Source: Rugalucina vietnamica
Taxonomy: Eukaryota > Mollusca > Bivalvia > Lucinida > Lucinidae
Length of the DNA stretch: 64,000 bases
NCBI GenBank assembly: GCA_964017185.1
Contig: OZ024874.1
Location: forward strand, 19,514,457 to 19,578,456
Direction: 5' to 3'
Within the stretch, counting starts at the first letter, position 1, and each line of letters starts with the position of its first letter. The position numbers were made by a program, and so were the translations under genes. Under the pieces are notes generated by a model. The model searched no databases and was not told where the DNA came from. It worked only from the letters and a program-made list of their open reading frames with translations. Shown here in pieces: positions 81 to 62,278 of this stretch.

Positions 81-244
81 CTCAACTTTTGTAATCATGA
101 GATCCTCCTTCTTGGGTGGGACTATCTTGGCATTCTTGGTCAACCAGACTGCCGCCTCCTCAGTTACCCCATTGGAGGCCTCTAGGGCAGCTTGACAGTC
201 TGACTGACTGAATCCCAGCTCCTGTAGCTGATCTACTTGAGATT
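81..244 (-). CDS. VPS13D: VPS13D exon 21 of window: UBA domain
   Basis: Acceptor CTCTCTTCAG/AATC, donor GTTGAG/GTAAAC. Encodes VDQLQELGFSQSDCQAALEA, SNGVTEEAAVWLTKNA, a full UBA three-helix domain with the LGF loop (the MGF-type ubiquitin contact) and the AALEAS and AVWL helices. It matches human LQELGFSMDDCRKALLACQG. This is the only intact copy of the exon; seven damaged copies lie upstream between 297 and 1373. Confidence 0.94.
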
Positions 245-3200
245 CTGAAGAGAGAATAAACTAAACATCATACAGGGTCACTGTGAAATAAATCACTGGT
301 CAACCGGTCAGCTGCTTCCTCAGTTCCCCGTGGGAGGCCTCCAGGGCAGCTTGACAGTCTGACTGACTGAATCCCAGCTCCTGTAGCTGATCTACTTGAG
401 ATTCTGAAGAGAAAATAAAATAAACACCATACAGGGTCACTGTGAAATAAATCACTGGTCAAGCAGACAGCCGCTTCCTCAGTTCCCCATTGGAGGCCTC
501 TAGGGCAGCTTGACAGTCTGACTGACTGAATCCCAGCTCCTGTAGCTGATCTACTTGAGATTCTGAAGAAAGAATAAACTAAATATCAAAAGGTCTCTGT
601 GAAATAAATCACTGGTCAACTGGCCAGCTGCTTCCTCAGTTCCCCATGGGAGGCCTCCAGGGCAGCTTGACAGTCTGACTGACTGAATCCCAGCTCCTGT
701 AGCTGATCTACTTGAGATTCTGAAGAAAGAATAAACTAAACATCATACAGGGTCACTGTGAAATAAATCACTGGTCAACCAGACAGTCTCTTCCTCAGTT
801 CCCCGTGGGAGGCCTCCAGGGCAGCTTGACAGTCTGACTGACTGAATCCCAGCTCCTGTAGCTGATCTACTTGAGATTCTGAAGAGAAAATAAAATAAAC
901 ACCATGCAGGGTCACTGTAAAATAAATCACTGGTCAAGCAGACAGCCGCTTCCTCAGCAACCCCGTTGGGGGCCTCTAGGTTAGCCTGACAGTTGGACAG
1001 ACTGAATCCCAGGTATTGTAGATGATCTACTTAAGATTCTGAAGAGATAATAAACTAAACATCATACATGGTCACTGTGAAATAAATCACTGGTCAACCA
1101 GACAGTCTCTTCCTCAGTTACCCCGTTGGAGGCCTCTAGGACAGCTTGATATCCCTGTATCCCTGACTGTATCCCTGACTGTATCCCAGCTCCTGTAGCT
1201 GATCTATCTGAGATTCTGAAGAGAAAATAAACTAACATCAATCATACACGCTGACTATGAAATGAGCCATTGGTACAACAGACAGTTGTCTCTTCTGTTA
1301 CCCCTTGAATGCCTCTAGCATGGTCTGACGGTCCGACTGACTAAACCCCAACTATTTGAGATTCTGAACAAATTATGAATGCAATCAATTAAACAATTGA
1401 CTCGGGACTGGCTGTTAAGAACTTAAGAGCATGAGTCAATGCTGAAGTAAAATGTTTCAAGTTCCATATTTTTGTTAGACACCGATTTTTTTCACATGAC
1501 TTTATTTCCTGGCAGCATTTGCAAGCAATATTTTGGCAATTTTCGTGAGGATCTGAATCTGAATAGTTTACTGGTGACATGCCAAATGAAATTATTTCAC
1601 CAGGGGGTTCGGATGGGGGAGAAATTAGTCCCCCTAGAAGGCATGAGCGAAGCAAACTTGGGCACACAAACATCTAACATTTCAACGGTGGAAAACAAAG
1701 AGTCAGGGAGGTCATTCCAGTCCCTGATAGTCTGGGGGAAAAGACACTACATTTACAGACATCTATACTAGCAGATGGTATCTGATATGCCATGGAGTGA
1801 TTATTTCTACAATGCCTAGTCTTGGGGATAAGGTCATTTGTAGGTATTCTGGCTTTACCCTTCAGACCTTTGTATAGCAATATAAGTTGATTATCTGTCC
1901 TTTTCTTGAGAGATTCCCAATTGAATTGTTCAAGAATGCCAGTCATACTTCCTTCCTCACAAGTATAATTCCTCGTTAAATCAAGCGGCACAATTCTGTA
2001 CTGTCTCCAATTCCTCCTGAAGGCCTTTAGTATGAGGATCCCAAACAGAACTTCCATAGTCCAGGACTGGACACACCAGTCCTTTATAAGCTGCTTCTTT
2101 AACATATTGGGGGCAAGCAAATAAAGAAAATGAATTTGCAAAATATATCACTGGCGAAATGTCCATTTTGATATAATGTATATCATTCTTGTGCAGGCCA
2201 TCTTCGCAATATGAGAAACATGCTTATAGACAAAATCACAAAGTTTAATAGCCCCGTAAAGAAGTTAGTTTATAGTAATAGTTACCTGAATAAGGAACAT
2301 CTGGGCTTCTACTGGTACCCTGCTTCTTCTTCTTCGCCTGTAAGGCCTGCTTTGGCAGTGAGTTCAAAATGCCGAGAAACATCCTGAGATCCAAATATGA
2401 CAGTCTAACATTCATTGTGCTGAACCCTATCTCTAGAAGTAGTTCCCTCTTGTCTATTGCCTTTGCATCGAGGAGACCTGCCGATTTTTCAGTTTTCAAA
2501 TCCGGTAATGGATTGGCATTCAGTTCAATGCCTATCGTCATGGGGTCAACAATGGACATGGCTGTGTCTTCTTCGGCAAGCAGGGAACAAGAAAACACTT
2601 CCAGGCTCTGCAGGGTGCAAGCCATCAATTTGTCCTGGGCCTTGGGCCGGAACGATAACACAGCTGTACTCTGGAAAAAGAAGAATTAAAAAATAATTAC
2701 TGTACAAGTACAATCCCAAGGATTTCTGAAATGTAAATATAATTACAATCCTAAAATTAAGTACTGCCTCTCTGCATCTTATAAAGACATTACACTACAT
2801 TGTTAAAATGTATGTAATACACCTGGACCTCTTTATAACACACTTCGTTAAAGCATGGTTTTGGCTATAACACGGATCATCCATGGACCCCAAATGGTCT
2901 ATTATTACTATATATCTATACATTTTATTCGTTATAACATGGGCTGGATAGCTAACACGGAAATTGTCTTGGACCCCAACAATAGTGTTATAAAGAGGTT
3001 GTGGTGTACATTGTTAATGCAGTTAAATCAAAATTATTCAGGTGTTCATTTTTTTATCATGTAAAAAGATCTAAATGTAACAAATGTCTTTGCTTGAAGT
3101 CTAAATGAGCCACGTCATGAGAAAACCAGATTTTTGCATATGCGAAAACAAAGCCGCAGATCAGCTGTGCAGTAACTGCACAGCTGATCAGCACCTTTGT

Positions 3201-6200
3201 TTTCACTTCTCGGACAGTACAATTCCTCTTCTTCTTAAATTAGAAATGTTGAGCTTCAAACCATCTTCTATACCTGTACAGGCCGGTTTGTATCGGACCT
3301 GGTCGTAAACCCCAAAGACCGGTTGTCTTGCGTCATGGCTCAAATTTCATGCTGCAAACTCAGCAAGCACGTAAAGAGTCTCAGCTGAGTTGAGCATGAA
3401 AAAAGTTTTATAATCTTGGGCTCAGGAATTGTTATGGCAAGTCTCTTTTCTGTCTTTGTATCTTTTCAAAACATCTGTTTCCCAAAAGTATCAGACGTAT
3501 GTAATATTATACTAATATACCTTCAATATAACTGCATTTGTATCCAAAGAAGCCAAGTTCTCCACAACAACAAACTGAGTCTCCGTCACATTCAGCTTAA
3601 ACTCAAATGCCACTTCCGTCTGATCAACCTGTGGCCCTCTCTTTGTGATTATCCCCCCTGATGTTGTCAGCGGGCTCGCAGTTCGAGATCCTGAACTTTT
3701 GATGGAAATGTCTGTGTCCGCGACACTCTCTCTTACGTCTTGTTCACTGTCATCACCTAAAATAAATCAACAGATGAAGTAAGTCAAGGTCATTGACTTG
3801 CTTTGTGATTATCTCCCCTGATGTCGTCAGCGGGCTCGCAGTTCGAGAGCCTGAACTTTTGCAGGAAATGTCTGTGTCCGCGACACTTTCTCTTACGTCT
3901 TGTTCACTGTCATCACCTAAAATAAATCAACAGATAAATTAACTTTGATTTATGATTATCCCCCTCCATCAAATGTGATCAAAGACCCCCTGATGTCGTC
4001 AGCGGGCTCGCAGTTCGAGATCCCGAACTTTTGCAGGAAATGTCTGTGTCCGCGACACTCTCTCTTATGTCTTGTTCACTGTCATCACCTAAAATAAATC
4101 AACAGATGAAGTAAGTCAAGGTCATTAACTTGCTTTGTGATTATCTCCCCTGATGTTGTCAGCGGGAGCCTGAACTTTTGCAGGAAATGTCTGTGTCCGC
4201 GACACTCTCTCTTATGTCTTGTTCACTGTCATCACCTTAAATAAATCAACAGATAAAGTAAGTCAAGGTCATTAACTTTGATTTATGATTATCCCCCTCC
4301 ATCAAATGTGATCAAAGAACTGGCCATCCGGGAGTGTGAAATCTTACACGAAATGTCTGTGGCAGATTTAGTCTCTCTTACACTTTGTTAACGGTTGTGA
4401 CCTAAAAATAGATTAACATAGAATTTAGGACAAGGTCATTAACGTTTCTTTGTGGCTATACCCTTGAGGTACACAGCACCTCTTGATGTGCCTGAGTGAG
4501 GCTTGAAGCCACAAGTCATCACGATAACATGTCTGTGACATGTATACCCCCTTGAACCCCACTTTTATATAGCAAAACTGGGGTATGCAGGGGTATACCT
4601 ATTTTTTCTTATTTTTGCTCCAAAATATAGATCGTGGGTACTTGTTAGAACCGCCAAATTTTACAACTTAGGAAAAATCTGTATATTACATGGGCATGTT
4701 TTTGTAATGGTTAGAAAATCATTAGTAAAGATAAAAACAGTTATATGATCTCAGATTGCGATAGCAATTAACAAGGTGAATCATTTTTCACACCTCTAAA
4801 ATAATTTCAAATGAGCCACCTCATGGGAAAACCAACAATCTGCATATGCGAAAACAAAGGCGCAGATCAGCTTCGCGGTAACCGCGAAGCTGATCACACC
4901 TTTGTTTTCGCTACTCGGATAGTACAATTCCTCCTCTACTTAACTCCAAAATTTCAAGCTTCTAGCCTGCTTCTGTAGCTGTACAGGCCGGTTTGTGTCA
5001 GACCTGTTCAGAAACCACATTGTTGGTTTTCCCACGAGGCGGCTCAAATACCTGTCAAAAAGGGATCCTCGGCCTTCGTCATAATAAACTCATTAACTTT
5101 GATCAACCAGTCAAAATTGCACATGAGTTTCATGTTGTTGAGCAGTATCATGAAGCGTGTTCCCTCCAGCGTGGACCTGAAGTGCAGTTCCAGCTGCAGA
5201 CTGTCGGGGCTAGCCGTCTTTGAGGGCTCTAGTATTCTCTCGAAAACACTGGGTTTCAGGTTCACTGCCACATCTGTAAATAGATTTCTAATTATACCAC
5301 AGAAATGACTAACAAATGAACAACTAACAAAAAACAAGAATTTAGAAAAAAATGCCATTAAGGATTTAATTAATCATGCAAGGGTTTATAATGGTAAACT
5401 ATCAAGAGTAAAAGGTATAAAATAACAAGTAATTTGTGCAATGTACTGAATCTTGATTTCCAGTTTTGGTTTGCACTGTTGGCCAATGTTTTTCTTTCCA
5501 AAATCTTTGGTGCACTTCACTCCAAATAATTACCTCTAAATCGTGTATCACTGGCCAATATCTCATGTGAAACCAGATCCGTCTCCTTTGATTGGTCAGA
5601 GTAACTATCATAGGACAATCGAGAGCGAATGAAATCCAGTTTGGCTATAGAGACTTGCGGGAGTTGTGGCCCTTGTTCATGAGATGTGAGGAGTTCCAAT
5701 GTGACATTTGTGAGATCTATTGACATTGATATCACTCTATATACATCTCCGGTGAGGACAGTCTGAAACAAAATGGAAGACAACTCTGTGATATTTGTGA
5801 CATGTATTGACATTGATATCACTCTATATACATCTCCGGTGAGGACAGTCTGAAACAAAATGGAAGACAACTCTGTGATATTTGTGAGATCTATTGACAT
5901 TGATATCACTCTATATACATCTCCGGTGAGGACCGTCTGAAACAAAATGGAAGACAACTCTGTGATATTTGTGAGATCTATTGACATTGATATCACTCTA
6001 TATAAATCTCCGGTGAGGACCGTCTGAAACAAAATGGAAGACAACTCTGTGATATTTGTGAGATCTATTGACATTGATATCACTCTATATACATCTCTGG
6101 TGAGGACCGTCTGAAACAAAATGGAAGACAACTCTGTGATATTTGTGAGATCTATTGACATTGATATCACTCTATATACATCTCTGGTGAGGACCGTCTG

Positions 6201-9200
6201 AAACAAAATGGACGACAACTCTGTGATATTTGTGAGATCTATTGACATTGATATCACTCTATATACATCTCTGGTGAGGACCGTCTGAAACAAAATGGAA
6301 GACAACTCTGTGATATTTGTGAGATCTATTGACATTGATATCACTCTATATACATCTCCGGTGAGGACCGTCTGAAACAAAATGGAAGACAACTTTGTGA
6401 TATTTGTGAGATCTATTGACATTGATATCACTCTATATACATCTCTGGTGAGGACAGTCTGAAACAAAATGGAAGACAACTCTGTGATATTTGTGAGATC
6501 TATTGACATTGATATCACTCTATATACATCTCCGGTGAGGACCGTCTGAAACAAAATGGAAGACAACTCTGTGATATTTGTGAGATCTATTGACATTGAT
6601 ATCACTCTATATACATCTCTGGTGAGGACCGTCTGAAACAAAATGGAAGACAACTCTGTGATATTTGTGAGATCTATTGACATTGATATCACTCTATATA
6701 CATCTCTGGTGAGGACCGTCTGAAACAAAATGGAAGACAACTCTGTGATATTTGTGAGATCTATTGACATTGATATCACTCTATATACATCTCCGGTGAG
6801 GACCGTCTGAAACAAAATGGAAGACAACTTTGTGATATTTGTGAGATCTATTGACATTGATATCACTCTATATACATCTCTGGTGAGGACCGTCTGAAAC
6901 AAAATGGAAGACAACTCTGTGATATTTGTGAGATCTATTGACATTGATATCACTCTATATACATCTCCGGTGAGGACAGTCTAAAACAAAATGGAAGACA
7001 ACTCTGTGATATTTGTGAGATCTATTGACATTGATATCACTCTATATACATCTCCGGTGAGGACAGTCTGAAACAAAATGGAAGACAACTCTGTGATATT
7101 TGTGAGATCTATTGACATTGATATCACTCTATATACATCTCTGGTGAGGACCGTCTGAAACAAAATGGAAGACAACTCTGTGATATCTGTGAGATCTATT
7201 GACATTGATATCACTCTATATACATCTCCGGTGAGGACAGTCTGAAACAAAATGGAAGACAACTCTGTGATATTTGTGAGATCTATTGACATTGATATCA
7301 CTCTATATACATCTCCGGTGAGGACCGTCTAAAACAAAATGGAAGACAACTCTGTGATATTTGTGAGATCTATTGACATTGATATCACTCTATATACATC
7401 TCTGGTGAGGACCGTCTGAAACAAAATGGAAGACAACTCTGTGATATTTGTGAGATCTATTGACATTGATATCACTCTATATACATCTCTGGTGAGGACC
7501 GTCTGAAACAAAATGGAAGACAACTCTGTGATATTTGTGAGATCTATTGACATTGATATCACTCTATATACATCTCCGGTGAGGACCGTCTGAAACAAAA
7601 TGGAAGACAACTCTGTGATATTTGTGAGATCTATTGACATTGATATCACTCTATATACATCTCTGGTGAGGACCGTCTGAAACAAAATGGAAGACAACTC
7701 TGTGATATTTGTGAGATCTATTGACATTGATATCACTCTATATACATCTCCGGTGAGGACAGTCTAAAACAAAATGGAAGACAACTCTGTGATATTTGTG
7801 AGATCTATTGACATTGATATCACTCTATATACATCTCCGGTGAGGACAGTCTGAAACAAAATGGAAGACAACTCTGTGATATTTGTGAGATCTATTGACA
7901 TTGATATCACTCTATATACATCTCTGGTGAGGACCGTCTGAAACAAAATGGAAGACAACTCTGTGATATTTGTGAGATCTATTGACATTGATATCACTCT
8001 ATATACATCTCCGGTGAGGACAGTCTGAAACAAAATGGAAGACAACTCTGTGATATTTGTGAGATCTATTGACATTGATATCACTCTTTATCATATATTT
8101 ACTGTAAAATACGTTCCTTTTACATATGCGATACAGGCGCAAGTCCTATGCACGTATCGGGACACCATATCTCGAAAGCTGTATCAGTTCAAAATTTGTC
8201 AAAATCCATATCTCCCTAGGGAGATATGGACTCATATCACACCCCCATATCACACCCCAAATCTCGAAAGCTGTATCAGTTCAAACTTTGTCAAAATCCA
8301 TATCTCCCTAGGGAGATATGGACTCATATCACACCCCCATATCACACCCCAAACCTCATATCACATCTCACGTGACCCCCACATTCAGAGCGCTCTGTTC
8401 TATTCAATAGTACGTTGTAAATTGTTCTCAATTTATAAATCAATTTTTTGTATTTGAATTTTCTGTATTAATGGTTAAATGTTATTGAATAAAATTTGTG
8501 ACCAGATTTTTTTTTTCATTCTTTCTTTTTTCCACTTGAAATTATGTTGGGAAACATTTTGTGCATTGAACTGTATCAAACACTTTTTTTTTCAACAAAA
8601 ATATATGATAAAGAGATCATGATATGGCAATTTTCATATCATACCCCGTATCAACCCTCGACCCGTATCAGCCCTCGACTCCCATATCAGCCCTCGGGCC
8701 TTCGGCCCTCAGGCTGATATGGGAGTCTCGGGCTGATACGGAAGTCTCAGGTTGATACGGGGTATGATATGAAAATTGCCATATGATAATCTCTTAATAT
8801 ACATCTCCGGTGAGGACATCTGAAACAAAATGGAAGACAACTCTGTGATATTTGTGAGATCTATTGACATTGATATCACTCTATATACATCTCCGGTGAG
8901 GACATCTGAAACAAAATGGAAGACAACTCTGTGATATTTGTGAGATCTATTGACATTGATATCACTCTATATACATCTCCGGTGAGGACATCTGAAACAA
9001 AATGGAAGACAACTCTGTGATATTTGTGAGATCTATTGACATTGATATCACTCTATATACATCTCCGGTGAGGACATCTGAAACAAAATGGAAGACAACT
9101 CTGTGATATTTGTGAGATCTATTGACATTGATATCACTCTATATACATCTACGGTGAGGACAGTCTGAAACAGAATGTGAGACAACTCTGTGATATTTGT

Positions 9201-12200
9201 GAGATCTATTGACATTGATATCACTCTATATACATCTCTGGTGAGGACCGTCTGAAACAGAATGTGAGACAACTCTTGCACTGAATTATAAATAGCTTGG
9301 CTGTAAATCAGGGCCTAGTTGTTCAAAACTTTGTCAGCTTAACATCATCATTAAGAACTTTGTTAGCTTAACATCATCGTTAAGACCTCAACTCCTTAAG
9401 TAAATGCCGACTACACAAGCAAATACATTGTCATTTTTTGCTGATAAAATGTGAGAATCCTTTGCAATGCAAAGGATTCTCACTTTTTTTCAACAAAAAA
9501 TAACAGTGTACATGTATTTGTAATATTGCCATTTTAAAATTTTAACGAATCGTTAACTAACGGCATCTTTAATTTTGAACAACTCGGCACAGAATTCTAC
9601 AATCAAGCCCTGTGGTTAAAAAATTAATATTCTCTGCGACTGGTGATGAATTAGATACCACACATGCAGAACCCGCACTTGGAGTCTTTTGGGCTCAGTG
9701 GAGAGTCAATATTAATTGTTGAGGGTATCAACCATCTAATCATTCTTAATCATGGAATGTTCTATAAAATATCTTAAGGTCTTTCACCTTGCTTCTAAAA
9801 TTTGATCGGTACTGTTTCATATTTTTTATGGCAAACATTTACACTTTGTAACTTTTATTTCAACAATTTTAATGACACGTTAGAACCACTGTTTTGGAGC
9901 AAAAATAAGAATTAGAGGACCAATGGTCCTGTAAACGCCACCTGAGATCTGGGTTATATACCAATAAACATGACCTTGCCATAAGATAGGTCAAGGTCAT
10001 TACAGCGTCATAATTTATGTATACATTGTAGTACTCTTGTCAATAATGTTACATGTCAAGTTTTGTTTAACCTGGTCCACTGTTTCCGGAGATGAAGATT
10101 TTGGAAGGGGTTTAACCATATATGGGCATGTGGCCATCTTGGTCATGTGACCTAAATTATTTATGTACACATTGGTTCCCCCTTCCAATAGATACTTCAT
10201 ATCAAATTTGGCTTTGATTGGCCGAGCGGTTTCAGAGAAGAAGATCTTTGAATATTATGATTAAATACATGTATACTTAACGACACTTCCAACGCTACCG
10301 ATAGAGTTTTTGCTATAATTTCAAAACTACTCAAGATATTGAAATGAAAATTGCAGGTACGATAGAAAAATTCATTAGACATGTACAGAAGGCAAAATGA
10401 TGCCAGCAGACTTTTATAAAGAAACGCTCCGGGCGTATGGACACACCAACCCCCATTTTCAAAAGTCGCAAAACCATGTGTAGCAAACAAAGATCTTCAC
10501 AACAGTTCCTCCGTATTTCTTTCTCATTTTGTTTTCTCTTTTTGCCACAGCACATGACTGGAAGAACAGTTCTCAGAAAAAAAACAAAAAAACAAATCAT
10601 ATGCACGGACTCACAGGGATATGCATCTGAGCGACGTTTCATACAGCAAGCAATACTGTAAACCCTCTGCAAGCAAATAAAGTTAAATATTTAGCCACCC
10701 AAATCATCGACTTAAATCAAATCGTCCATATCTGTCCCATATCTGGGACATTATCGGCTGTGTAGGAAGGAGACGGTACCCTGCTAACGTTATACAGTTT
10801 TAGCAATTTGTAAGGTATGGGTGGATGGGTATAGCACAGTGCCAGTAGTACGTATACGGTACGTGGCTTTGACGCGTAGTTGTTGGCAAGCTGTCATTCG
10901 AATAAATGGCAGCATAACTAGGTAATGTGGTTGGATCAGATGAATATTTTGGTGTGATAGTTTAGTTTCAATTGTTTTGTTTGTTGTTTTGTTTTCTTCT
11001 TTCTTCATGAATAAAATATACAAAAAGAAATACACTATGGCAATAAATATTGTAGATGTATTGCTGAAATGATGTTTTCTTTAATCCCTCAACTTCAAGT
11101 TTTGCGACTTTTGAAAATGAAGTGTAGTTTGTCTAAACGCCCGGGCTGTTTCTTAATAAAGGTTCGCTGGCATCACACGTCTCATGAAGTTTCCTATCGT
11201 CCCTGCGATTTTCATTTCAATATCCTGTGTAGTTTTGAAATTACAGCAAAAACTCTATCGGTAGCGTTTGAAGTGTCGTTAAGTATATATTGCCACTGGG
11301 TGGGGGCAGACAAGCCCCTGGGGTCAAAATTATTTAAGAATCACAAATCTTCAGTCCATTTGCCCATTTTCTTCAAGTTTTTACCTTCAAATGACATTTT
11401 GACAATTTTCCCTATTCAAATGAATGGGTGACCTATGATGACCTTGCTATAAAATAAGTCAAGGTCATCTCAAGGTCATGATTTATATAACTTTTAAAGA
11501 GCTCCACTACCTGATGCTTCATGCCAAGTTTCAAAATCATAGGCCTTCTGGTTCTGGAGATCTGAAGAAGATTTTTAAAGGTTTTTGCTATTTATAGCCA
11601 TGGTGGCCATCTTGGTCATGTGACCTGGACCATTTATATAAACTTTCATTCCCCCTTTCCTAAAAATGCTCCACATGAAGTTTGGCTTTGATTGGTTTCA
11701 GAGGAGAAGATCTTTGAAATTGTGGACGACGACGACATACGATGACGGATGGACGCCGGATCATGGCCATCCTATAAGCTCACCTTGTAAGCCTTCGGCT
11801 CAGGTGAGCTAAAAATAGGTATACCCCTGCAAACCTTAGTTTTGCTACATAAAATTGGGGTTTAAGGGGGTATAAATTTCACGAACATGTTTTTTTGACA
11901 AGGAAATCCATTTCCAAGGATACAGCAAACACCAGATACAAATACCATATTAAGGTGGGATAATACTGCACCACATTTTCCAAAATATTGCCAGTACTAG
12001 AGAATTGATATTTGTGTTATGGTTTATCGCTTTTGCAGTGCAATGTAAATTAGAAGCTGATGTGAAAATCTGTTTTTCAATATCTTTATAATTGAGCCAC
12101 CTCGTGGAAAAAAACACAATGTGGTTTCCGAACAGGCCCAACACAAATCAGGCTGTACAGTCATAGAAAAGAGCTAGAAGCTTGAAATTTTGGAGTTAAG

Positions 12201-15200
12201 TAAAGGAAGAATTGTACTATCCGTGTAGCGAAAACAAAGGCGCTGATCAGCTTCACTGTTTGCGCCTTTGTTTTCGCCTAGGCAGATTGTTGGTTTTCCC
12301 ATGTGGCGGCTCATCTTTATATGTCATATAAATAATTCTGTTTATATGGAATATGAACTTATTTCTAGCTATGGGTGAAATACATGAAATGAAGCTTTGC
12401 AATGGTAGGAAGGGTAAATAAGAAAGCATTACCATAGAATCAATGAAAAACTGTTCCGCCTGTAATATAAGTCTATCAGTATCAGGAAAAAGCTATTTTT
12501 TTGGTAATATTTTTGTATCCTTAAAAACGAAGGTGCAGATCACGTTTCACCACTTTGATAGTACATTCCTTTTACCTCAAAAGTCCGTAACTTTCAAGCA
12601 TATGACCATCAGAACAGCCTAGGCATCAGACCCAATTCTGAGATACTTGAATTGCTTCCCTAAACAATTTACATACAGCAAGTATTGAACAGACTGATAC
12701 CCCATCTGATCAGAGTCTAACTCAAAATGCACATATACATGTTTGAGTTGAGGCGTCAAATGCCAATAATCTACATTTCAGTCATGCCAGGATGTGGCTA
12801 CCATTCCTGGCCCCAAGGTTATAAAACTTTTTTCATGCTTAACTCAGCTGAGACTAAAACTTATCCTGATCATAAATGTTAAAATGCCAACAACTGTTGA
12901 CATTTTAACATTCATTAGCAGGATAGATTACAGGCTTTGAGGCTCTAAATCTGAAATTTCAATTTATTTGGGCTATTTCAGTATCTATGAGCAGTTTAAA
13001 TTTCATGCTAGGGTACGCTGAGTATGAAAAAAAAACTTTTATAACCTTGAGACCTGGGCACTTAAGCAATAATCCTTAGAATAATGTGTCTTGCTCAAGG
13101 ACACTCCAAAGCAAAAGTACGCAACAACAATATCAAATAAAACCCTGCTAAAATAAAATCTTTAAATAAAAGTAAAAGCACAATTATCAGAGATAATAAG
13201 AACAGAAAATGCTACCTTTATATTAGGGTCCACCATGTGAGTCATCAGGTCCTTTTTAAACTTCCAAATCTCAAACTTCTCCCCGAGATTATGATCTAGC
13301 AGGCCTCGTATCAGTTTATACTGCTCTATGTCGAGACAGCAGTAGACAGAAGATAGCGCCCCTTGGACACACCAGTCGGGGACGGCATGGCTGATGTCCC
13401 CGTCCAAGTTTCGCTCGATGGTCAAGTTAAGCATGCATTTTTCTTTCAGTAATTTGCCACCCTGTAAATGAATCATGTTTGAAAATCATTTGGGGCCCTA
13501 GTATAAAAGTGCCAAAGCAAAAATATTTGAAGAGACCCCTCTCAGACGGCATGCCAAATTTACAAGGATGACAGCATAACTTAGGATGAGGGTATAAATG
13601 CCTTTTATGTGTGCATTCATATATTTAAATAAGTTGGGTAAAAGTGGCCCCCTCTTGGATATAGCTGCTCACGCAACTTACGATATGTTCTTTTTGTATC
13701 AGACTGATTGTCAACTTAATGCCACCTTGGTTATTAGGATGGGACTTTGGTTCTGATTGCCCCTATTCCTAATCATGGCTTACGTTTACCTTTTCCAAAA
13801 TTCAAATCTTTATTGTTAGAAAGTAAAAAGTCATGGAGTTACCCTTCTTTGTATGATAGAAGATGGAAATTCCAGGTCTTGTTTCTTATTTTTCTTCTTA
13901 TACAACTTCTTATCAACCCTTTCTGCTGAAAACAGGTCCATGTCAGACAGCTTCACCTCCAGAATGTCAAGTAAACACTTGTGCTGGGTCGTATCCATGG
14001 CAACAAATGGTGTCTCCGAGGGCGACTCTTTGTTATTTGAGAAAACATTTCTATCTCTCGTGCTCACCTCGCTAGTTGATGAGCAGGACCTGAGCAGAGC
14101 TGGGCTAGAAGGTGGATGTAACAGTCTGCTGGTCGTTCTGTCAAAACTTGTGTCTAGCAGCAGATTTTGTCGAGATGACCTTGATGATGACCTTGGAGAG
14201 ACTGGGTCAACGCTGGAGCCATCTGGTGGAAGGGATGACCCATTTTTGTCAGTTGGATCATAAATTTCATCAACAGTCTCTGAATTTATATCTTCATTTC
14301 TAATGTCATGTTCCAGACTGCCATAAATACTCTGCGTCATTAAGTCCACATTTGACCTTGGTGGTTGAAGTTCATCGAAGATGCTTTGAGTGAGTGGGAG
14401 GGGTAACTCCGTCTGCACGACACTATCAAGTCCTTGTGATACAGTTCTTGCCCTAACACCTCCAAATGACTGAGAAGATGACCTTGATGCGGCACTGTCA
14501 GATTTTTGTGAAATTTGAGAATCCGTTCGGAACAAACTTGTCCTCGATCCATCGGCTCGGTCTAACTCTTCAGATTTGGCATAATTAAAGGTCTCAGGAT
14601 CTCCATCAAATTTGAAGCAGTTTTTGACTGAGAGTGTTCCAAGGTCAGCTACAAGGACATCTGTTGTCCTTGAACTATGGGGAACCAGAATAATGGGAGA
14701 ACCAGCCTCTATGTCTAGCAATATCCTAGCCATGTGGAAGGCTGCTTCATGGATCTGAAAGGTTTTTTGAAATACACTGTCAGTAATGGGTTCAAAATTT
14801 CAGGTAGACTGGTAGGTCTGGCAAGTGAGCAGGCCAGCTTAAACCACCAGTAGGGGTCTAATCATGAGTCTGCACTCCTGAATGAATCTTTTAATCTCTA
14901 ATTGTTTCATTTTAGTCAAACTAGAAGCAACTGCTATGAAACTGACAAGTCACCACAGTTTGGGTGCCTAGAGAAACTAGGTTTTATATTTATTATTCTG
15001 ACTTAGATTTTAATATTTGAATAAACAACAGATCCATGCATGTCCAAAATCATTTGAATATACTGTTATATTCAATGTATAGGTATTTTACTTTCCAAAA
15101 TCTATGTTAAAAACGAACATGTCCAGACACATTTAGGTAATTAAAATCAAAACATCATCTTACATTTTTGCCAGCAGAGGATGCCCTCATTCTCCCTAGG

Positions 15201-18200
15201 ACTTCCTGAAGCTGTAGAAAATGTTGAATGAAGCCTAGAAGTTCAGCGTGGAAATGGTTCGTATGAGTGTATCGTACTGAAGCCATGGTCAATTTGAGTT
15301 TTGAGTCATAGTCACGCTTCAACCAGGGATCAGGGATACCATATCTGTTTAATAAGAGATCAATAAATGATTAATCAATGTTGTATAAAAAAAACTAAGA
15401 AGTTCCACATGGAAATGGTTGGTGTGAGTGTATTTTACTGAAGCCATGGTTAGCTTCAGTTTTGAGTCATAGTCAGGCTTCAACCAGAGGTCAGGGATAC
15501 CATACCTGTTGAATGACAAAAATAAATATTTTTCACTTGATATGGCACCTATTGTTCATTGTGAATGATGAAGTAATGCAAAGCTAGCCAGCTACTTCAC
15601 TGTTAAATTTGTTGCAAACCATGTACAGACATGTTCCCAGTAATATATGCTAATTAGCCACTAAAAGAAAAAGGAATTATTTTCAATGGTAAGTAATAGA
15701 TCTAAATCATGTAGTGTGTTCAGGATTTTCACTTGCACACTGTAGAGGCGCTACTCTGAAAAATATCTTTTGTTCGCTTGTTTAAGTTAAAAACAAAATA
15801 AAGACATTGCTGAAATTTTTGGAAAATCATGATACACATTTCCAGCAATTCTTACTTGAAGAAGTGGAACTCCATAGCCTGATCCCCGACAGTCATAAAC
15901 TTCTCCCTGTACAGCACACCATGGGGAGACAAATCTATCAGCATCATCTTCCCTAACTGGCCAGTCATGTCAAAGTTACCATCCCTTAGTGAGACATGGG
16001 ACGTTAGCTTAGAGACGCTGGCCTGGGCTAGTTCATACTCAGTCTTGTTGAGAACGATTGTGAGATTCTCCACTTTAAGGTTGATTTCCGAGTTGACCAC
16101 TTGCTGGACATACTCATCTGTAACAGTAAGGATATTACTAGGGATGATATGACCCTTATCTGTCCTCAAACCTTAAGTAAAGTCCCTTACCCTTATTGTT
16201 CAAATATTTTATAGATCCCATTTTCTTTTAATAATTTACTTACAATTTACAGGATGTAATGATTTTGCATAAGAATTATTTCCAAATTCCCATCACACTG
16301 CTTATCTTTACTTTTGTCATTCGTCTTTTGTGCATCCTTTTTTCCAAACTTCAAGAGTCTCTTTCATTCTCTAACTATACCTTAGACAGAATAGAGTCTC
16401 AATTGTAACTACTTGGCATACTGTACCTGACTCTGTCCTATCTGGCTGTGCGGGTGGAGCAGTGGGGTCCTGCATCGTCTCCATATCATGGACCTTAGCC
16501 CCCAGTCCGAGGAAATCTAGCAGAATCACCCAGGTCTGGAGGTTTATCTTGGTGTCAAGGCAGTTAAAGTCTACATCTATAAACCTCTTGGTCTGAAACA
16601 ACAAGATGCATGTAGTTTCTATTGAAGTATGATAAATCCATAGCATTGTCATTATTTTGGCACACAAAAATGTTCGCTGTAAGATTTAAACTTAAAGCCT
16701 AAATTATTAAGACATTAAGCAACTCAAAACAAGAAATTCAACACACTGAGCTAACCCCTTGTGTATCAATTCTTCAACAGCATTAAGGACTTGCATTATG
16801 GCCTAGAGGTCGAGGAGTCAGACTCTGAATCCAGAGGTCCTGGGTTCTAACCCCACTGGTGCCATGATTATGTCCTTGAGCAAAGCACATTTACTTCCTG
16901 TAGTACTGCTTAATGTCCAGAAAGTGGTAACACTGTCCCAACATGACTGAAAAATTGTTCACTTGGACGTTAGATTAAATTGAATACAAAGCATTCTCAC
17001 CAACTATGTATTCACATATTCACTATGGGAATATGGATCCCTGCCTAATGGAGCCAGTGAGAAATAGATGGGCTGCTTGTGCCTCCAGGCAAAGCTTATA
17101 AACTACAGAATGGCCATCAGATTACTGGTAAACAGCTCAGAAGGTCTGGGTCTGCCCTGGAAAAGTGGTTCCAGTCAAGCCATTCATACATTATATACCT
17201 TAGCTTACACAGTGGTTATATTTCAAGCATATTTTGAGTGTGATGACATCTAATGTTGGGTGGAAGTCCCATTAAATTGAGGCAATGTCCAAACATGACC
17301 ATAGCTGTTGACTGGGATGCTAAGCCACAAATAAAACTAGAAATGTGTGTTTGTAAAACACTATGCCCCCAACTGTATGGTTGTCCCTAAGCAGCTTGTA
17401 TGATTCATTTATTTCATTTGAATGAAGTGAAATTTAATTTCCTGAAGCTGTTCGGTTGCCTCTGTTTTGACCTTGATCCAGAAACAGAATGTAAACTTTT
17501 TGCAGATAAGTTAGAAATGGGAGTAAAAATTTCAAAATGGAGTAATTTTGTCAAAATTTGACGGAAAGTCCTCAAAAGTTAATCAGGTGATCTTCTTCTC
17601 AGCCCCAACCAGTGTACCAAATATGAAGGCTCTAGCTTAAATACTTTTTGAGATATCTTGCACATAAGAATTTCAAATTTTGTTTTAAAAGGGGCATAAC
17701 TCCAAAAAGGTGCATAACTTGAACATAAACAAAAATATGGGTCAACTATTTTTTCATAAGGAACCTGTATATGAAATTTCAAAACCCTAACATTCACCGT
17801 TAAAAAGTTACAAATTTCACCGAAAAGTGCAAAAATTAATCAAAATTTCGAAATTCCGTATTTTTGTCAAAATTTGACAGAAAGTTCTCAAAAGTTAATC
17901 AGGTCATCTACTCCTCAGCCCAAACCAGTATACCAAATATGAAGGCTCTAGCTCGAATACTTTTTGAGATATCTTGCACACAAGATTTTCAAATTTTGTT
18001 TTCAAAGGGACATAACTCAGAAAAGGGGCATAACTTGGACGTGAAAAAAAATATGGGTCAACTATTTTTTAATGAGGAATCTGTATATGAAATTTCAAAA
18101 CCCTAGCAGTCACCGTTCAAAAGTTTCAAATTTCACGGAAAAGAGGAAAAATCAATCAAAATTTAAAAATTCTGTATTATTGTCAAAATTTGACGGAAAG

Positions 18201-27200: not shown

Positions 27201-30200
27201 CATGTTCAAGAATTGTGTATCCAAGATTAGGTCAAGAAGTATAATGCTTCAGTTCTTGTATATTGACCCCATTTTTGGGAGTGTCCATTATTAATAGGTA
27301 AAGCAGATTTTGGTTTAGGATAACTGACTTTAAATTGGTCTTTTAAATGCTTTTTGTCATATGTTTTGAATTGTTATGTTCAAGTGTAATACTGTTTTTA
27401 TACCATTTTCTGTATTTAATGCTTATTTATGCTTTAAAACCTGCTTTTTGAATTGGATGAGAACATTTATGTTATGGGTTAGGCAGGTGGCATTTCTGTG
27501 TATAAAAAGGCCTGTTTTTGGTCAGTTGAGAGAGTCAATACACATTTTGGAATACACTAAACCTGCGACACTTTGGATTAAAATTATTAATTAATTATTA
27601 AATACTTATTTATTTTGTATTGACTTGTTTTGGACTTTAAACACTTCAAAATTATCAGAAATTGATAAGGAAAATTAGGAAAATTAAGAAAAATCATTTT
27701 GTGTTAAATTTGGCATTTTCAATATTTTAATCATTTTTGACTTTTGGACTTAGTAAAATTTGCTGAAATTATATAAATTCTAGTTAAGTGCTATTTATCT
27801 GAAATTCAGAGATATTTAGGCTTTTTAAGACATAGTTATGTTTATGTGATTTGCTTCTGTTGTTTCATGTTGTAAATTACAGAAAAAGAACAAAAATATC
27901 AAAATTATAACAGTGAAATTAATTCTTTGTTGTGTGTTTGTTTGGCAGGCGGGGGTTGTGTTTGTCTTGTGGTGGGCCTGAGCCTGGTTTGCTAATTAGG
28001 CTTCTGACTTGGCCTTATAATTTAAGTCAGTGGTGTCGGCAATCTTGACAAGTGAAAGTTTATTCCCTCAAAGCGGATTTATTTACAGTTAATTCAAAAC
28101 AACACTCAAAGTTGCGGAATCTGTCGACCAGCCTAAGATACAAACCTATCATTAAATCCGGGTATCTGGTCGAAGTAATTTGAGACCATTTTGCTTTGCT
28201 CCAGTTTTACCCGGGTTTACTACAAAAGTGGTGTCAGAAGTGGAGATTATTTCTCTCAGATTTCTGTGTTTATGACATAGCTGGGAAAATAATCATATTT
28301 GGAAAAGAACTTGTGCTAGACAGATTGCAAAAATTTTGAGTGCTGTTGTTTCCACTAACTGTTTTCTGTTTTATTTCAGAGTGCTGGTGTTTTCACTAAC
28401 TTTCTTTTATCTTCCAGAACACTTTGAGCTGTGTTATGTTATTTCACTGTATTTTTGTTCTGTGTTGTGCATGCCCAGGTGAGAAATTGCGTCATTAGGC
28501 AAACTTACCATATCTACTTATGTTATTCACTTTCAGGACATAGAACTGTTAGCTTTATATGGGTTAAGTAATTAAGTTCTAGTAATTAAGTTCTGTGTTT
28601 TTGTGTCCGCAAGCTCACACGTCTTTTAGTGGTTAAGAGTAGACTAGTCCTGCCTCGTGGTTTTGAAGCATGTAAAAATCGCTAGAAGGCAAACTAACCA
28701 CTTTCGTTAAGTCATCACTAACAAAATTCATGTTATATGTTTTGTGTTTGTCTGTGAGTGTTTTTAGTGGTTAAGAGTAGATTAGGCCTGGCTCGTGGTT
28801 TTGCAGCATGTGAGAATCGCTAGAAGGCAAACTAACAATTTTCGTAAATTCATCACTAACAAAATCTATGTTATATGTTTGTGCTGTTGGTTAGAGATTG
28901 CGTGATTAGGCAAACTCACCTTGTCTTATAGTTTATGTTAGCATTTATTTTACATGTGTTAATTTAGTTCTGCATGTGTGTCAATTAATTGCTTTTTGTT
29001 TGTTTCTAACACAGGTCTAGCAGAATTTGAACCAAGCCACTGCCGCCTGTGTACCATTTTTTCTTGTTTGACAATTTTCTATGATTTTGCATGTGTGACA
29101 GAGGAATGCGTCATTAGGCATCTCTGTCAATTAATTGCTCTATTTGTTTCTAACACAGGTCTAGCTGAATGTGAACCAAGCCACTGACGCCTGTGTACCA
29201 TTTCTTGTTTGACAATTTTCTATGATTCTGCATGTGTGACAGAGGAATGCGTCATTAGGCATCTCTGTCAATTAATTGCTCTATTTGTTTCTAACACAGG
29301 TCTAGCTGAATTTGAACCAAGCCACTGACGCCTGTGTACCAATTCTTGTTTGACAATTTTTATGATTTTACATGTGTGACGGAGAAATGCGTCATTAGGC
29401 ATCTCTGTCAATTAATTGCTTTCTTTTGTTTCTGACACAGATAAAGCTCAATTTGAACCAAGCCACTGACGCCTGTGTACCAATTTTCTTGTGTGACTGT
29501 TTTATTTGATTTTACATGTTTGACAGAGAAATGCGTCATTAGGCATCTCTGTCGTTTCTTACACCTTCAATTTCTGACATAGGTTGCCAAGATATTTCTG
29601 AAGCAAGTCAAGTAATGTTATTCATTTTGTTATTGATTAAATAATAAATTTGACAGAGAAATGCGTCATTAGGCATCTTTGTCAAATATTGTTCTCTTTA
29701 CTTCAGTTGCCTAATTATCTATCACTGACAGATGACTGGATTAAAGTGAAAATTGTATTCTGTGACAAATAGTGTGATAATTACTAAGTGTTGGATATAT
29801 TTGTTTCTGTGAGTGGATTATTTATTTCTGTGAAGAAAACTCAATTGTGACCATTCTAACTTACTTCAAGTGTTTGGATTAATATGGAGTTCAGATCTAG
29901 GAGTTTCGGATTCTACCCCTTTCCGGGCCCAAGTCCAGATGACCAGAGAAGAGGGCCTACTACTCCAAGTCAGAGTAGACTAAACAGTCCAGACCCTCTA
30001 GAAGATGCCTGGAGACTCCAGAGACAACCTACCTACACTGGACCTGACAGGGTTATCATCCAGAATGATTTCAAGCCCAGACCACCCTCATTTGACGGAA
30101 AGCCTGACACATGGGAACCATTCCTCATGCAGCTAAAACTGATGGCCAAGAGCTATAGATGGTCCGACAGAAAGTTTAGGGAGCAGTTGATGTTTGCTCT

Positions 30201-33200
30201 GAGGGGTGAAGCATTGCTTTTTGCTTCCAACCTGCCGCACATAACGGTCGAAGATACAAACAGCCTCTTACAAGCCATGGGACAGCGATTTGGGCAGTGC
30301 CTTCTAGCTGAAACACATAGAGCCAATCTGTACAATCTTAAAAAGCAGTCAAAAGAAAACCTCCAACAATACAGCGCTCGAGTCAGCCGACTTATGTCTA
30401 GAGCCTATCCAGGTATGCAGGGAACTCCTGTGTTAGAAAATTTGGCTATTGAACACCTTCTCAGGGGGCTTCCAGACCAGAAATTGGCCTATGAGATATT
30501 TACCAAAAGACCAAGGGATTTATCAGCTGCTATAGACATGATCAACTGGCATAAGACAAGCCACTTAATTATAAGCACTTCTGCAAAACATGAAGGTGCA
30601 GGGACACAGAGTAAACCACAAACAGACTGTCATAAAATTGACCGTGTGAGAACTGAAAAACATCTGACAGAGAGGAACAGAGAAATCTGTAGTAGTAAAA
30701 GCAGAACCAAGTCGCAACAGTCATTAATATCTCACCCATTAGAGACTGCCACTGCTGGAACTACCAACAATGGAGAGTACCGACGACTACGACCAAGTAA
30801 ATGTTACAATTGTAGAAGACGTGGACATCACGCTGACTTCTGCCCAGACAAGACATCAACGAGGACCCTTCAACACTGATGCCAACTTAATCAGACAGAC
30901 AGACAGAGACTGTCAACTTGGATTCATTATTATTCTGTGTTAGTGTAGAATATGAATATAGTATTAATCATTGCATTCATGTTATCTGGATGATTATGTG
31001 AATTCAGATTATTCAGTGGATTTAATTTAAATTTTGTGTTGTCATTTAGCATAGTCAATGATCATTCAAACTACATGTACATGTATCCGAGAGATACATG
31101 TATTCTTCTGGATATATAATACCAACTGTGACCTTCCAGGATATAGAATACAATATCTAAGAACTCATATCATCAATATGTTAATCATTATGAAGGAGTA
31201 TATGAAACATTTGATCAAGTAAACAGAGACTTGATGGAAACACTGTTTTAAGAAACTGTTTTAAATTTGATATTTAATGTGTAAGCTGTGTATACATTTG
31301 CTTTGGGGTAATTTTAGAGGCCCTACAGCTTGTGTCTGCATGTTGTAATACTCATAAGGCTGCTAAAGTTGTTTGGGGGTAAAGTTACATGTAAGTTGGG
31401 CTTGTGTTGGGCTGTGAGCCATGTTATTATGTTTTAAGTTCATGTGAACTTTGGGGTATTTTTGGGTTGTAGGTGGTATCTTAAAGGACATGATCCACGA
31501 AAGGTCAAAATCGGCCCTGTATCAGAAACTAATGAAATTTGGATACAAGATAGATGTAGATGTCCTGTGATCGAAAATGAATTTTTGAAACATGTGACGT
31601 AATTATTAAGCATTTCTGACGTCATAAACTTACCCTACCTCACGCGACGTGGTTAGTGAATCTATAACGTTAGTGACGTTATTACGTTTTTTGTAGCAGC
31701 GTTATGTATGCAACATATTCTGCTCGCACTCACTGACCATCAGCTGGAAATGGATATCATTGCTACCGTGACTCTGTTAGTCTTTGATTGGTACACCGTG
31801 TTACACAGGTGCGATCCCGGCACGTTAAACTTCATCCATCAGCGATGAACGTAGGATACGAAATGAACGTGTGACACAGTTTCCATTGTGACGGTTATAA
31901 CTCCAGCTAGTAGTCCGATAGCTACAGTGCGCTAATCTAAATTGGCAGCCATTAGATATGCTCTATGATTGTTACAGTTTTCCAAAATATGAGATTGATG
32001 AGAAATAAATAATCTTGAGACCCAAATCCTTTACACCGAAAAATGTACCAAAAACTTCATGGGGAAATGCAGAGTTTGTTGCACTTGCACAAAGAAGTAA
32101 ATACCGGGTCGTGACATCAGTCTGCAAAGTCAGAAAAAGATCATTTTTGTTCGCTCGATCACTTATCATGCCTTAAAACTGCAACACAAGCATGTGCAGT
32201 TAATCGCGCAAAAACGCTTACTACGTGAAGAGATAGCCTATTACAGCAGTGCACGTTCCAGACCCATGGCGAGGAGAGCAAAGAGTACAATGTGTAAATT
32301 CTAAAATGTTTACTTGTAAATGTAATTTATTAGTTACAGGCGTTTATAAATGAAGACGAAAGCCTCGAAGTAATTGGGCAATTCGCAAGCGCGCGCTGTT
32401 AATACACAATTTTATTTAGGCTTATTCTATTTAACTGTTATCGGGCGGCATGCAAAACACGTGCTGATAATGAGAAACTGCAATATAAAGTTTCGGTACG
32501 CATGAAAATGTGACGAGGCTTCATTTATACCTATACAGTCGGGATGCGTAGCCAAGGCGCAATGATATAATCAAAATCGTAGCAACCAAAAACGTTCGAA
32601 AATTAAGCCATCAACTTTGAACCGAGAGACAGTGCCTATAGTAATTCCATTCGTGTGTACCAAAGACGAAACTGATTTTCATCAAACACGCAGCCCATTT
32701 TAAGCAATGCTATATCCGACCTATGAAGCTGCTTTGTTGCCATGACAGTTTGTCGGCGCATTGATTTAGGGGATTTTCCTTCGCGAGTCAACTGTCGAAA
32801 ATGCCAGTCGTGTTAAATCGTTTATTTAACGAGTATTTGATTTTCTCCCGTGTCGAGGCCGATATTTTCTGAAAATTTAATCTTTTGTGAGAATATTGAT
32901 GTATAAATCACGATATGATCGGTGTGAACAAATTTTTGTTCTAAAAAAGAAAATTGGTACTGACGATGAGAATGGCGTTTATGCCCCAAAATTAGGCTCA
33001 AATTGGTTGAACTTTTATGAAAAAATGTCAGCATAAACGCTATTGATCCGTCAAATACGGTTCATTTCAACCGATGCTATATAAAACATTGTCACTTTCA
33101 TTCAGTTTTCAATTTTATCGAGAAATATTTGAGAAAAGTACAGCTAAATTGGAAATTGTCGCAGTTCGACACTATTTTTAGAACACAAGTAAAAGCTTTG

Positions 33201-60892: not shown

Positions 60893-60973
60893 TTATTGAA
60901 ATATTGAATAATATACCAAGAGTAGGGGCACTGTGGTAAATGTTTATGATGTACATAAAGACTAAACACTTGA

Positions 60974-61481
60974 AACCTCAGTGGGACATAAAACCCCAAA
61001 CTGAAGTGCAAACATTCTTACTTTAACTATGACCTCGGTGGGACATAAAACCCCAAACTGAAGTGCAAACATTCTTACTTTAACTATGAACTCGGTGGGA
61101 CATAAAACCCCAAACTGAAGTGCAAACATTCTTGCTTTAACTATGACCTCGGTGGGACATAAAACCCCAAACTGAAGTGCAAACATTCTTGCTTTAACTA
61201 TGACCTCGGTGGGACATAAAACCCCAAACTGAAGTGCAAACATTCTTGCTTTAACTATGACCTCGGTGGGACATAAAACCCCAAACTGAAGTGCAAACAT
61301 TCTTGCTTTAACTATGACCTCGGTGGGACATAAAACCCCAAACTGAAGTGCAAACATTCTTGCTTTAACTATGACCTCGGTGGGACATAAAACCCCAAAC
61401 TGAAGTGCAAACATTCTTGCTTTAACTATGACCTCGGTGGGACATAAAACCCCAAACTGAAGTGCAAACATTCTTGCTTTA
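60974..61481 (-). repeat. 57-bp tandem array
   Basis: Nine direct copies of a 57-bp unit (CCTCGGTGGGACATAAAACC ... CAAACATTCTTGCTTTAACT). On the gene strand 57 is a multiple of three and one frame is open throughout (ARMFALQFGVLCPTEVIVK per unit). Each unit contains a CACTTCAG acceptor-like site. No exon of VPS13D that I recognise matches it. The last unit is cut by the LINE tail. Confidence 0.92.
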
Positions 61482-62278
61482 GTAAGTAAGTAAGTAAAGC
61501 CTTTATTTATAGAGGGTAACAACATTTAGCACATACATATAGATACAAAGACATGTAATAGCTAATCTTCCATGAGGCCCTCATAAATATATATTTACAA
61601 ATATACAAGTGAGCAAACAATGACAGAGTACATAACTATATATCTGTTTGCAGCTTGAGTTTGGTATATTGCCGGATAAAGTAATAACAAGTTCAAGATA
61701 TCTTACCGAAACGAAATGCAAGAAACCTGGTGAAATTACTGGGCAGCATGATTTTAATACATGCATATCTAATAGCAGTGTTTGTATGTACTATACAAGA
61801 CCAATATGACCAACCAAACTGCAAGTAGACAGATAGTTACTTGTACTGCAGTGACAATTTATAAAACAACAAAATACACAAACAATACAACATGATTACT
61901 AAGTACATTCACTAAGTTATCATGTAGAAATCAATAAAAATTAAGAATGTGAGGATTATTTATAATACAAGTTAAATAAGTTATACATAAATTACACATG
62001 TTCATTTCTGTTTCCTGACCATTTCAGGTATCTTGTATGAAATGTATCAATGGTTTGGGCTGTTTTGATTTCCTCTGGAAGATTATTCCATACAAGGCAG
62101 CCAGAGTATCTCATGCTTTGTTTAAAGTATTCAGTCCTAGGCTTGGGTGGGATAAAGCAACCGGCAGCAGTTGATCTTAGATTTATACTTGTATTGGCAC
62201 TGTTTCGTAAAGTAAAGTTTTCTGATATATATGTAGGTACTAAATCATTGTAGACTTTGAACATAAATTTGGCTTTCC
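61482..62278 (-). pseudogene. LINE 3' end: RT C-terminus, 3' UTR and (TTAC)n tail
   Basis: Minus strand. KAKFMFKVYNDLVPTYISEN and RTEYFKQSMRYSGCLVWNNL, PEEIKTAQTIDTFH are the C-terminal RT signature of CR1-like non-LTR retrotransposons, with a stop at about 61992. A ~490-bp 3' UTR and a (TTAC)n tail at 61482-61499 follow. It is inserted into the 57-bp array, and the coding part continues beyond the TIR transposon at 63951. Confidence 0.85.

Follow-up and report, generated by a model that had tools for sequence, protein, structure and literature searches.

Tandem duplications of an intron-exon boundary, known as mirages, have been reported in amphioxus, and the passages that describe them record no interference with splicing (PMC3087553, PMC3902484). 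According to these passages, BflGb6 carries 6 and 3 repeats in two haplotypes, with units of 150–160 bp that comprise the end of the intron and the start of the exon, BflGb9 duplicates the opposite boundary, and Adh3 data and globin reverse transcription PCR suggest normal splicing in amphioxus (PMC3087553). A troponin C mirage and similar repeats in PGBD5 were added as amphioxus cases (PMC3902484). Here we describe an array of 33 acceptor-like sites at one exon of VPS13D in a 64-kb window (the whole stretch of DNA analysed) from the bivalve Rugalucina vietnamica. The tandem unit spans the exon-intron boundary and an intact exon adjoins it, which is the structural definition of a mirage. The VPS13D array is an unusually long, partly in-frame mirage and extends mirages from lancelets to a bivalve; in the open-licence literature searched, no mirage in molluscs was found and the cases found were for lancelets only. 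Judging from the sequence features set out below, only or nearly only the acceptor nearest the exon body, at 5762, is very probably used, and the upstream copies would be spliced out with the intron.

The acceptor array of VPS13D

The minus strand of the window holds the VPS13D gene, and the domain matches and bivalve protein matches bear out this identity, which the sequence-only reading had proposed. Pfam VPS13_M matches were found in several minus-strand exons, each under Pfam's own cut-off, together with a UBA match on the same strand that is above its own cut-off. Among the matches listed, the nearest proteins are bivalve VPS13D, namely that of Mercenaria (52% over a 2307-residue model) and that of Mactra antiquata (72% over residues 2390–2700 of a longer model). 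According to a provisional gene model, VPS13D covers about 137 kb in total and extends past the window at both ends. The same model makes the array-bearing exon about the 34th coding exon, and the designation exon 17 was thus not borne out.

The authentic exon (the earlier exon 17) occupies 5534..5762 on the minus strand. It is 229 nt long, encodes TVLTGDVYRV...DTRFR and has its true acceptor at 5762 and the donor GAG|GTAATT. The upstream VPS13D exon (the earlier exon 16; 13216..13461, minus strand) ends in the donor AAG|GTAGCA. The phase is 0 both at the end of the upstream exon and at the start of the 5762 exon, and the two are joined in frame.

Thirty-three sites of the form GTTT[CT]AG|A (the search pattern required an A after AG) were counted on the minus strand at this exon, comprising the true site and 32 upstream copies, which agrees with the earlier estimate of about 30. 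The main block (5763..8091, minus strand) holds 26 acceptors at 87-bp steps from 5849 to 8024. The distal block (8797..9276, minus strand) holds four acceptors, 8819, 8905, 8991 and 9077, whose copies lack one base, and two 87-bp copies (9164 and 9251). The competitors thus lie 87 to 3489 nt upstream of the true acceptor. Tandem Repeats Finder reported 27.5 copies with 97% matches and a score of 4553 and, in an 86-bp form, a further 5.6 copies; a chance origin of the array was rejected, the repeat score being far past chance. The unit length of 87 bp given earlier holds for 28 of the 31 measurable units and fails for the other three, which are 86 bp long and shift the reading frame. Nor is every copy identical to the real acceptor, as had been claimed: TTTTAG is found at three acceptors, and TCTCACATTCTGTTTCAG at the two farthest from the exon. 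In the genome searched (1.09 Gb, 47 contigs), one 87-base piece gave at least 33 matches, all within the array; such match counts are lower bounds, since the search skipped very common words.

The two blocks are separated by an unstranded insertion of about 705 bp (~8092..8796), which is possibly a mobile element. It contains a hairpin of about 185 nt (8611–8795) that is strong when folded as DNA (z = -20), and minus-strand donor-like sites at 8644 and 8354. Within the main block, a nine-unit (783-bp) segment is duplicated (6459..8024, minus strand): the units starting at 8024–7328 and those starting at 7241–6545 are identical at 780 of 783 bases, which indicates that the array grew at least partly by block duplication. 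This duplication records past turnover of the array in the one assembly. Assembly errors are common in long arrays whose units are 97% identical, and an aberrantly assembled mirage is mentioned for the amphioxus draft in the passages on mirages (PMC3087553); both points speak for a misassembled or inflated array. This explanation is very improbable, because the array lies on a 72-Mb contig and its single-base variants, 86-bp copies, nine-unit block and internal insertion form an ordered structure; any error would be limited to the copy number.

Exact identity gives a unit of 57 exonic and 30 intronic bases, as had been stated. We compared the break across the exon (...AAATGTCACA), the unit (...AAATATCACA|GAGTTG) and the flank of the most distal copy (...GTGCAAGAGTTG). 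The next unit bases, TCACA, match the exon too, and GAGTTGTC is shared with the intron that flanks the most distal copy, which places the break 5–6 bases further than exact identity does. The original unit therefore probably comprised about 62–63 exonic and about 24–25 intronic bases and had microhomology of about 1 bp at its break, and the earlier division does not stand as the original break. Since only about 24–25 bases of former intron precede each internal acceptor, the branch point of such an acceptor would lie there or in former exon sequence. In regards to the reading frame, the 14 nearest upstream copies (5763..6980, minus strand; acceptors 5849 to 6980) keep the frame open and would add n x 29 residues, exactly as had been claimed, and the remaining 18 of the 32 run into a stop.

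Choice among the acceptors

We compared the joined exons with related proteins. The protein set comprised at least 233 fetched sequences (two lists of 120 each and a third search that contributed seven, with overlaps counted once). The two joined exons matched 149 of the 233 listed proteins, and 144 of these, including 10 bivalve proteins, spanned the junction. The last-acceptor junction aligned without a repeat insert in 144/144, so that the authentic exon is intact beside the array. Within 10 positions of the junction, 142 of the 144 had no extra residues, one had 1 and one (Glossina) had 5, and the gap positions never exceeded 16 in total in any junction-spanning alignment. Adding one repeat to the query lowered the score of all 144 spanning matches; the score rose in 4 of the 149, none of which spans the junction. 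Many of the 144 are near-identical vertebrate proteins, so that fewer than 144 count as independent, and most of the matched relatives are gene predictions. A query of three exons around the junction matched 7 relatives at 39–66% identity.

The variation among the 28 copies of 87 bp was examined next to the mutational opportunity. The 62 exon-derived bases contain seven variable sites, one synonymous and six non-synonymous, and the opportunity of 45:127 (synonymous:non-synonymous, plus 8 changes to stops) leads to an expectation of about a quarter synonymous. The 25 intron-derived bases contain six variable sites, including CAG>TAG in three copies. These copies gave no sign of coding constraint on the repeats, with few sites and weak power.

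These two results bear on an isoform ladder, in which one or more of the 14 in-frame acceptors serve in splicing and VPS13D gains n x 29 residues. Fourteen consecutive copies are open in frame and their acceptors are mostly identical to the true site, as such a ladder would have it. AlphaFold2 without an alignment also folded four repeats plus the exon as beta strands, with a block predicted local distance difference test (pLDDT) score of 67–88 over the repeats and means of 64.5–66.8 in the five models. However, the insert is absent from the 144 junction-spanning relatives, six of the seven exon-derived variable sites change the amino acid, and a fold search of the PDB with the array model gave nothing at E ≤ 0.001, the best match being at 0.25. 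Moreover, a control frame from a 57-bp satellite in the window reached a beta ladder as well, with a best mean pLDDT of 74.3 and 40.7, 36.4, 35.6 and 23.3 in the other four models; this frame was assumed to be non-coding, and the control is not clean. The beta-ladder protein was rejected as evidence, because structure is silent on acceptor choice and the ladder arises for the satellite frame too, less consistently; the predicted repeat structure is weak evidence at best. An isoform ladder is unlikely. A tissue-restricted or low-level use of the 14 in-frame acceptors, with VPS13D proteins that ascend in 29-residue steps and copy numbers that differ among individuals, appears quite unlikely. Separately, the raw repeat frame gave Pfam matches, among them MINAR1_N, that were taken as repeat artefacts, since no stretch passes alone.

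We scored the splice signals of the array against those of the gene. The common acceptor scored 7.86, which exceeds 48 of 59 VPS13D acceptors, and the variant copies scored 6.47 to 6.97. The best donor inside the 87-bp block scored 3.3, whereas the true donor scored 6.49 and the median of the gene was 5.27. The weak block donors and the strong true donor are consistent with exon definition. A recursive splicing site consists of an acceptor directly followed by a donor (AG|GT). Such ratchet sites were rejected here, since the 33 sites precede ACT, ACG or ATG and lack AG|GT.

Upstream acceptor copies were also found at four other VPS13D exons on the minus strand. The second array (137..1362) lies before the UBA exon and has 159-bp units, with the true acceptor at 244 and copies at 403, 562, 719, 878, 1038 and 1215. 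The third (3641..4477) lies before the exon at 3756 and has units of about 160 bp, with copies at 3916, 4088, 4235 and 4401. The fourth is a two-copy duplication (15237..15527) before the exon at 15344, whose copy acceptor at 15505 leads to a stop. The exon at -2954, below the window (in extended window coordinates, used for all positions outside it), has one upstream acceptor copy. All 12 of these copies lead to a stop and would truncate the protein. Nine of the 12 score at least as high as their true site: five of six at the UBA exon, where they exceed the true-site score, two of four at 3756, and the single copies at 15344 (15505, 5.93 versus 4.42, on slightly differing profiles) and -2954. 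Frequent use of these truncating acceptors would lose VPS13D, yet the gene looks functional, which argues that they are normally passed over. The acceptor that VPS13D uses thus appears to be the one closest to the exon body.

Several points weigh against use of 5762 alone. Most upstream acceptors score the same as the true one, so signal strength cannot explain the rejection of the copies. The donor-like sites of the insertion score 5.21 (8644) and 4.9 (8354), close to the gene median, so that a cryptic exon of about 175 nt could begin at a distal acceptor, for instance 8819. No stop occurs in the nearest 14 copies, in contrast to those of the sister arrays; this run counts as weak, because two of the three copies with TAG are counterparts within the nine-unit duplication. 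The matches included neither a transcript nor a protein of this species, and identities reached at most 79% in the alignments inspected. Finally, VPS13D is conserved across about 60 exons, and this conservation is the sole basis on which the gene looks functional.

Exclusive or near-exclusive use of 5762 nevertheless remains very probable, and we infer it together with exon definition as its cause and the placement of the branch point. A segment across a VPS13D intron-exon boundary (about 24–25 intron and 62–63 exon bases) would have been duplicated in tandem, and the duplicated boundary would have expanded into a minisatellite, in part through duplication of blocks. A full acceptor is retained in each unit, and the exon body with its strong donor is continuous with the last copy only. 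By exon definition, the spliceosome would pair the true donor with the nearest acceptor, 5762, and the copies would leave with the intron; the branch point may lie in the short tail of intron or in what was once exon sequence. The sequence-only reading was right about the anatomy of repeated in-frame acceptors and about the locus as a natural test of acceptor choice. It left the outcome between a ladder of isoforms and a neutral array with only the last acceptor used; the absence of an insert in the 144 relatives, the lack of constraint, the weak block donors and the 12/12 truncating sister copies favour the latter, and the ladder is unsupported.

Duplications elsewhere in VPS13D and other features

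We surveyed local duplications along VPS13D. In a first survey of 62 exons, three of which had a boundary that was off by a base or lacked AG, duplications covered 5/62 acceptors and 3/62 donors, two of the donor cases being one 33-bp cross-match between neighbouring donors. With 61 corrected exons and a rising overlap demand, the counts were 6, 5 and 5 for acceptors and 3, 3 and 1 for donors; one acceptor case (-15352) consists of a copy of the whole exon, located downstream. Points 400 bp from the boundaries lay in duplications in 10/45 cases upstream and 6/45 downstream, and random intronic points of VPS13D did so in 78 of 300. An acceptor-side enrichment was rejected, as the bias is too small to claim and boundaries are covered less often than random intron. 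The array is a striking instance of a common process, tandem duplication being rife in VPS13D.

This background bears on the possibility that the copies act as decoys or as a source of stop-containing transcripts that tune the VPS13D level. The 18 upstream acceptors that would reach a stop and the donors supplied by the insertion fit such a role. The copies show no sign of constraint, however, and the similar arrays at several exons and the duplicated random intronic points look like general turnover. A decoy role is thus highly improbable.

Other duplications were observed at further exons, all in extended coordinates. Upstream of the exons at -10286 and -14661 lie copies of exon sequence that lack a clear acceptor. 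A donor-side counterpart occurs at the exon 71169–70986, where about three degenerate copies of the exon end and donor reach into the intron from 71082 to 70568. The small exon at -15352 and its acceptor have a decayed copy directly downstream (-15332 to -15610).

Three further features were noted in the window. The 57-bp satellite (60962–61525; 8.9 copies, 99% matches) has a minus-strand open frame and lies between two VPS13D model exons. A 339-aa open frame on the plus strand (29860–30879), with a PNMA match barely above the cut-off and weak zinc-knuckle matches, also lies between two VPS13D model exons and is probably a retrotransposon gag. A 141-bp tandem array at 28972–29553, where there is no known exon, has a plus-strand unit with the acceptor-like stretch TTTGTTTCTAACACAG.

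Comparison with known systems

The worth of the VPS13D array lies in a quantitative test of acceptor choice rather than in an expected isoform ladder. The choice of the spliceosome among equal acceptors is usually studied with built constructs. In this one native gene, 33 mostly identical acceptors and four exons with destructive copies would make a proximity rule measurable across distances. The array is also a warning for gene prediction, as a simple gene finder began the exon at 6980 and absorbed all 14 open copies.

At tandem alternative acceptors (alternative 3' splice sites, NAGNAG among them), several sites are known to be used. As in these systems, multiple acceptors compete for one exon in VPS13D; the array differs from them in that one used site is expected and the competitors are as distant as given above. 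Intron gain by tandem duplication, as far as the relevant passages describe it (PMC2891723; model in PMC3087553), likewise starts from a duplication that includes exon sequence, whereas no new intron was seen at VPS13D and the unit lacks a donor of usual strength.

The closest counterparts are the amphioxus mirages, as they appear in the passages cited at the outset. As in BflGb6, the VPS13D units hold the intron end and the exon start; as in the amphioxus mirages, either boundary can be affected and many copies retain splice signals. The VPS13D array differs from BflGb6, with its 6 and 3 units, in having 33 acceptor sites and a bivalve host. It further differs from the mirages so described in a unit length divisible by 3, in 14 open copies and in several arrays within a single gene.

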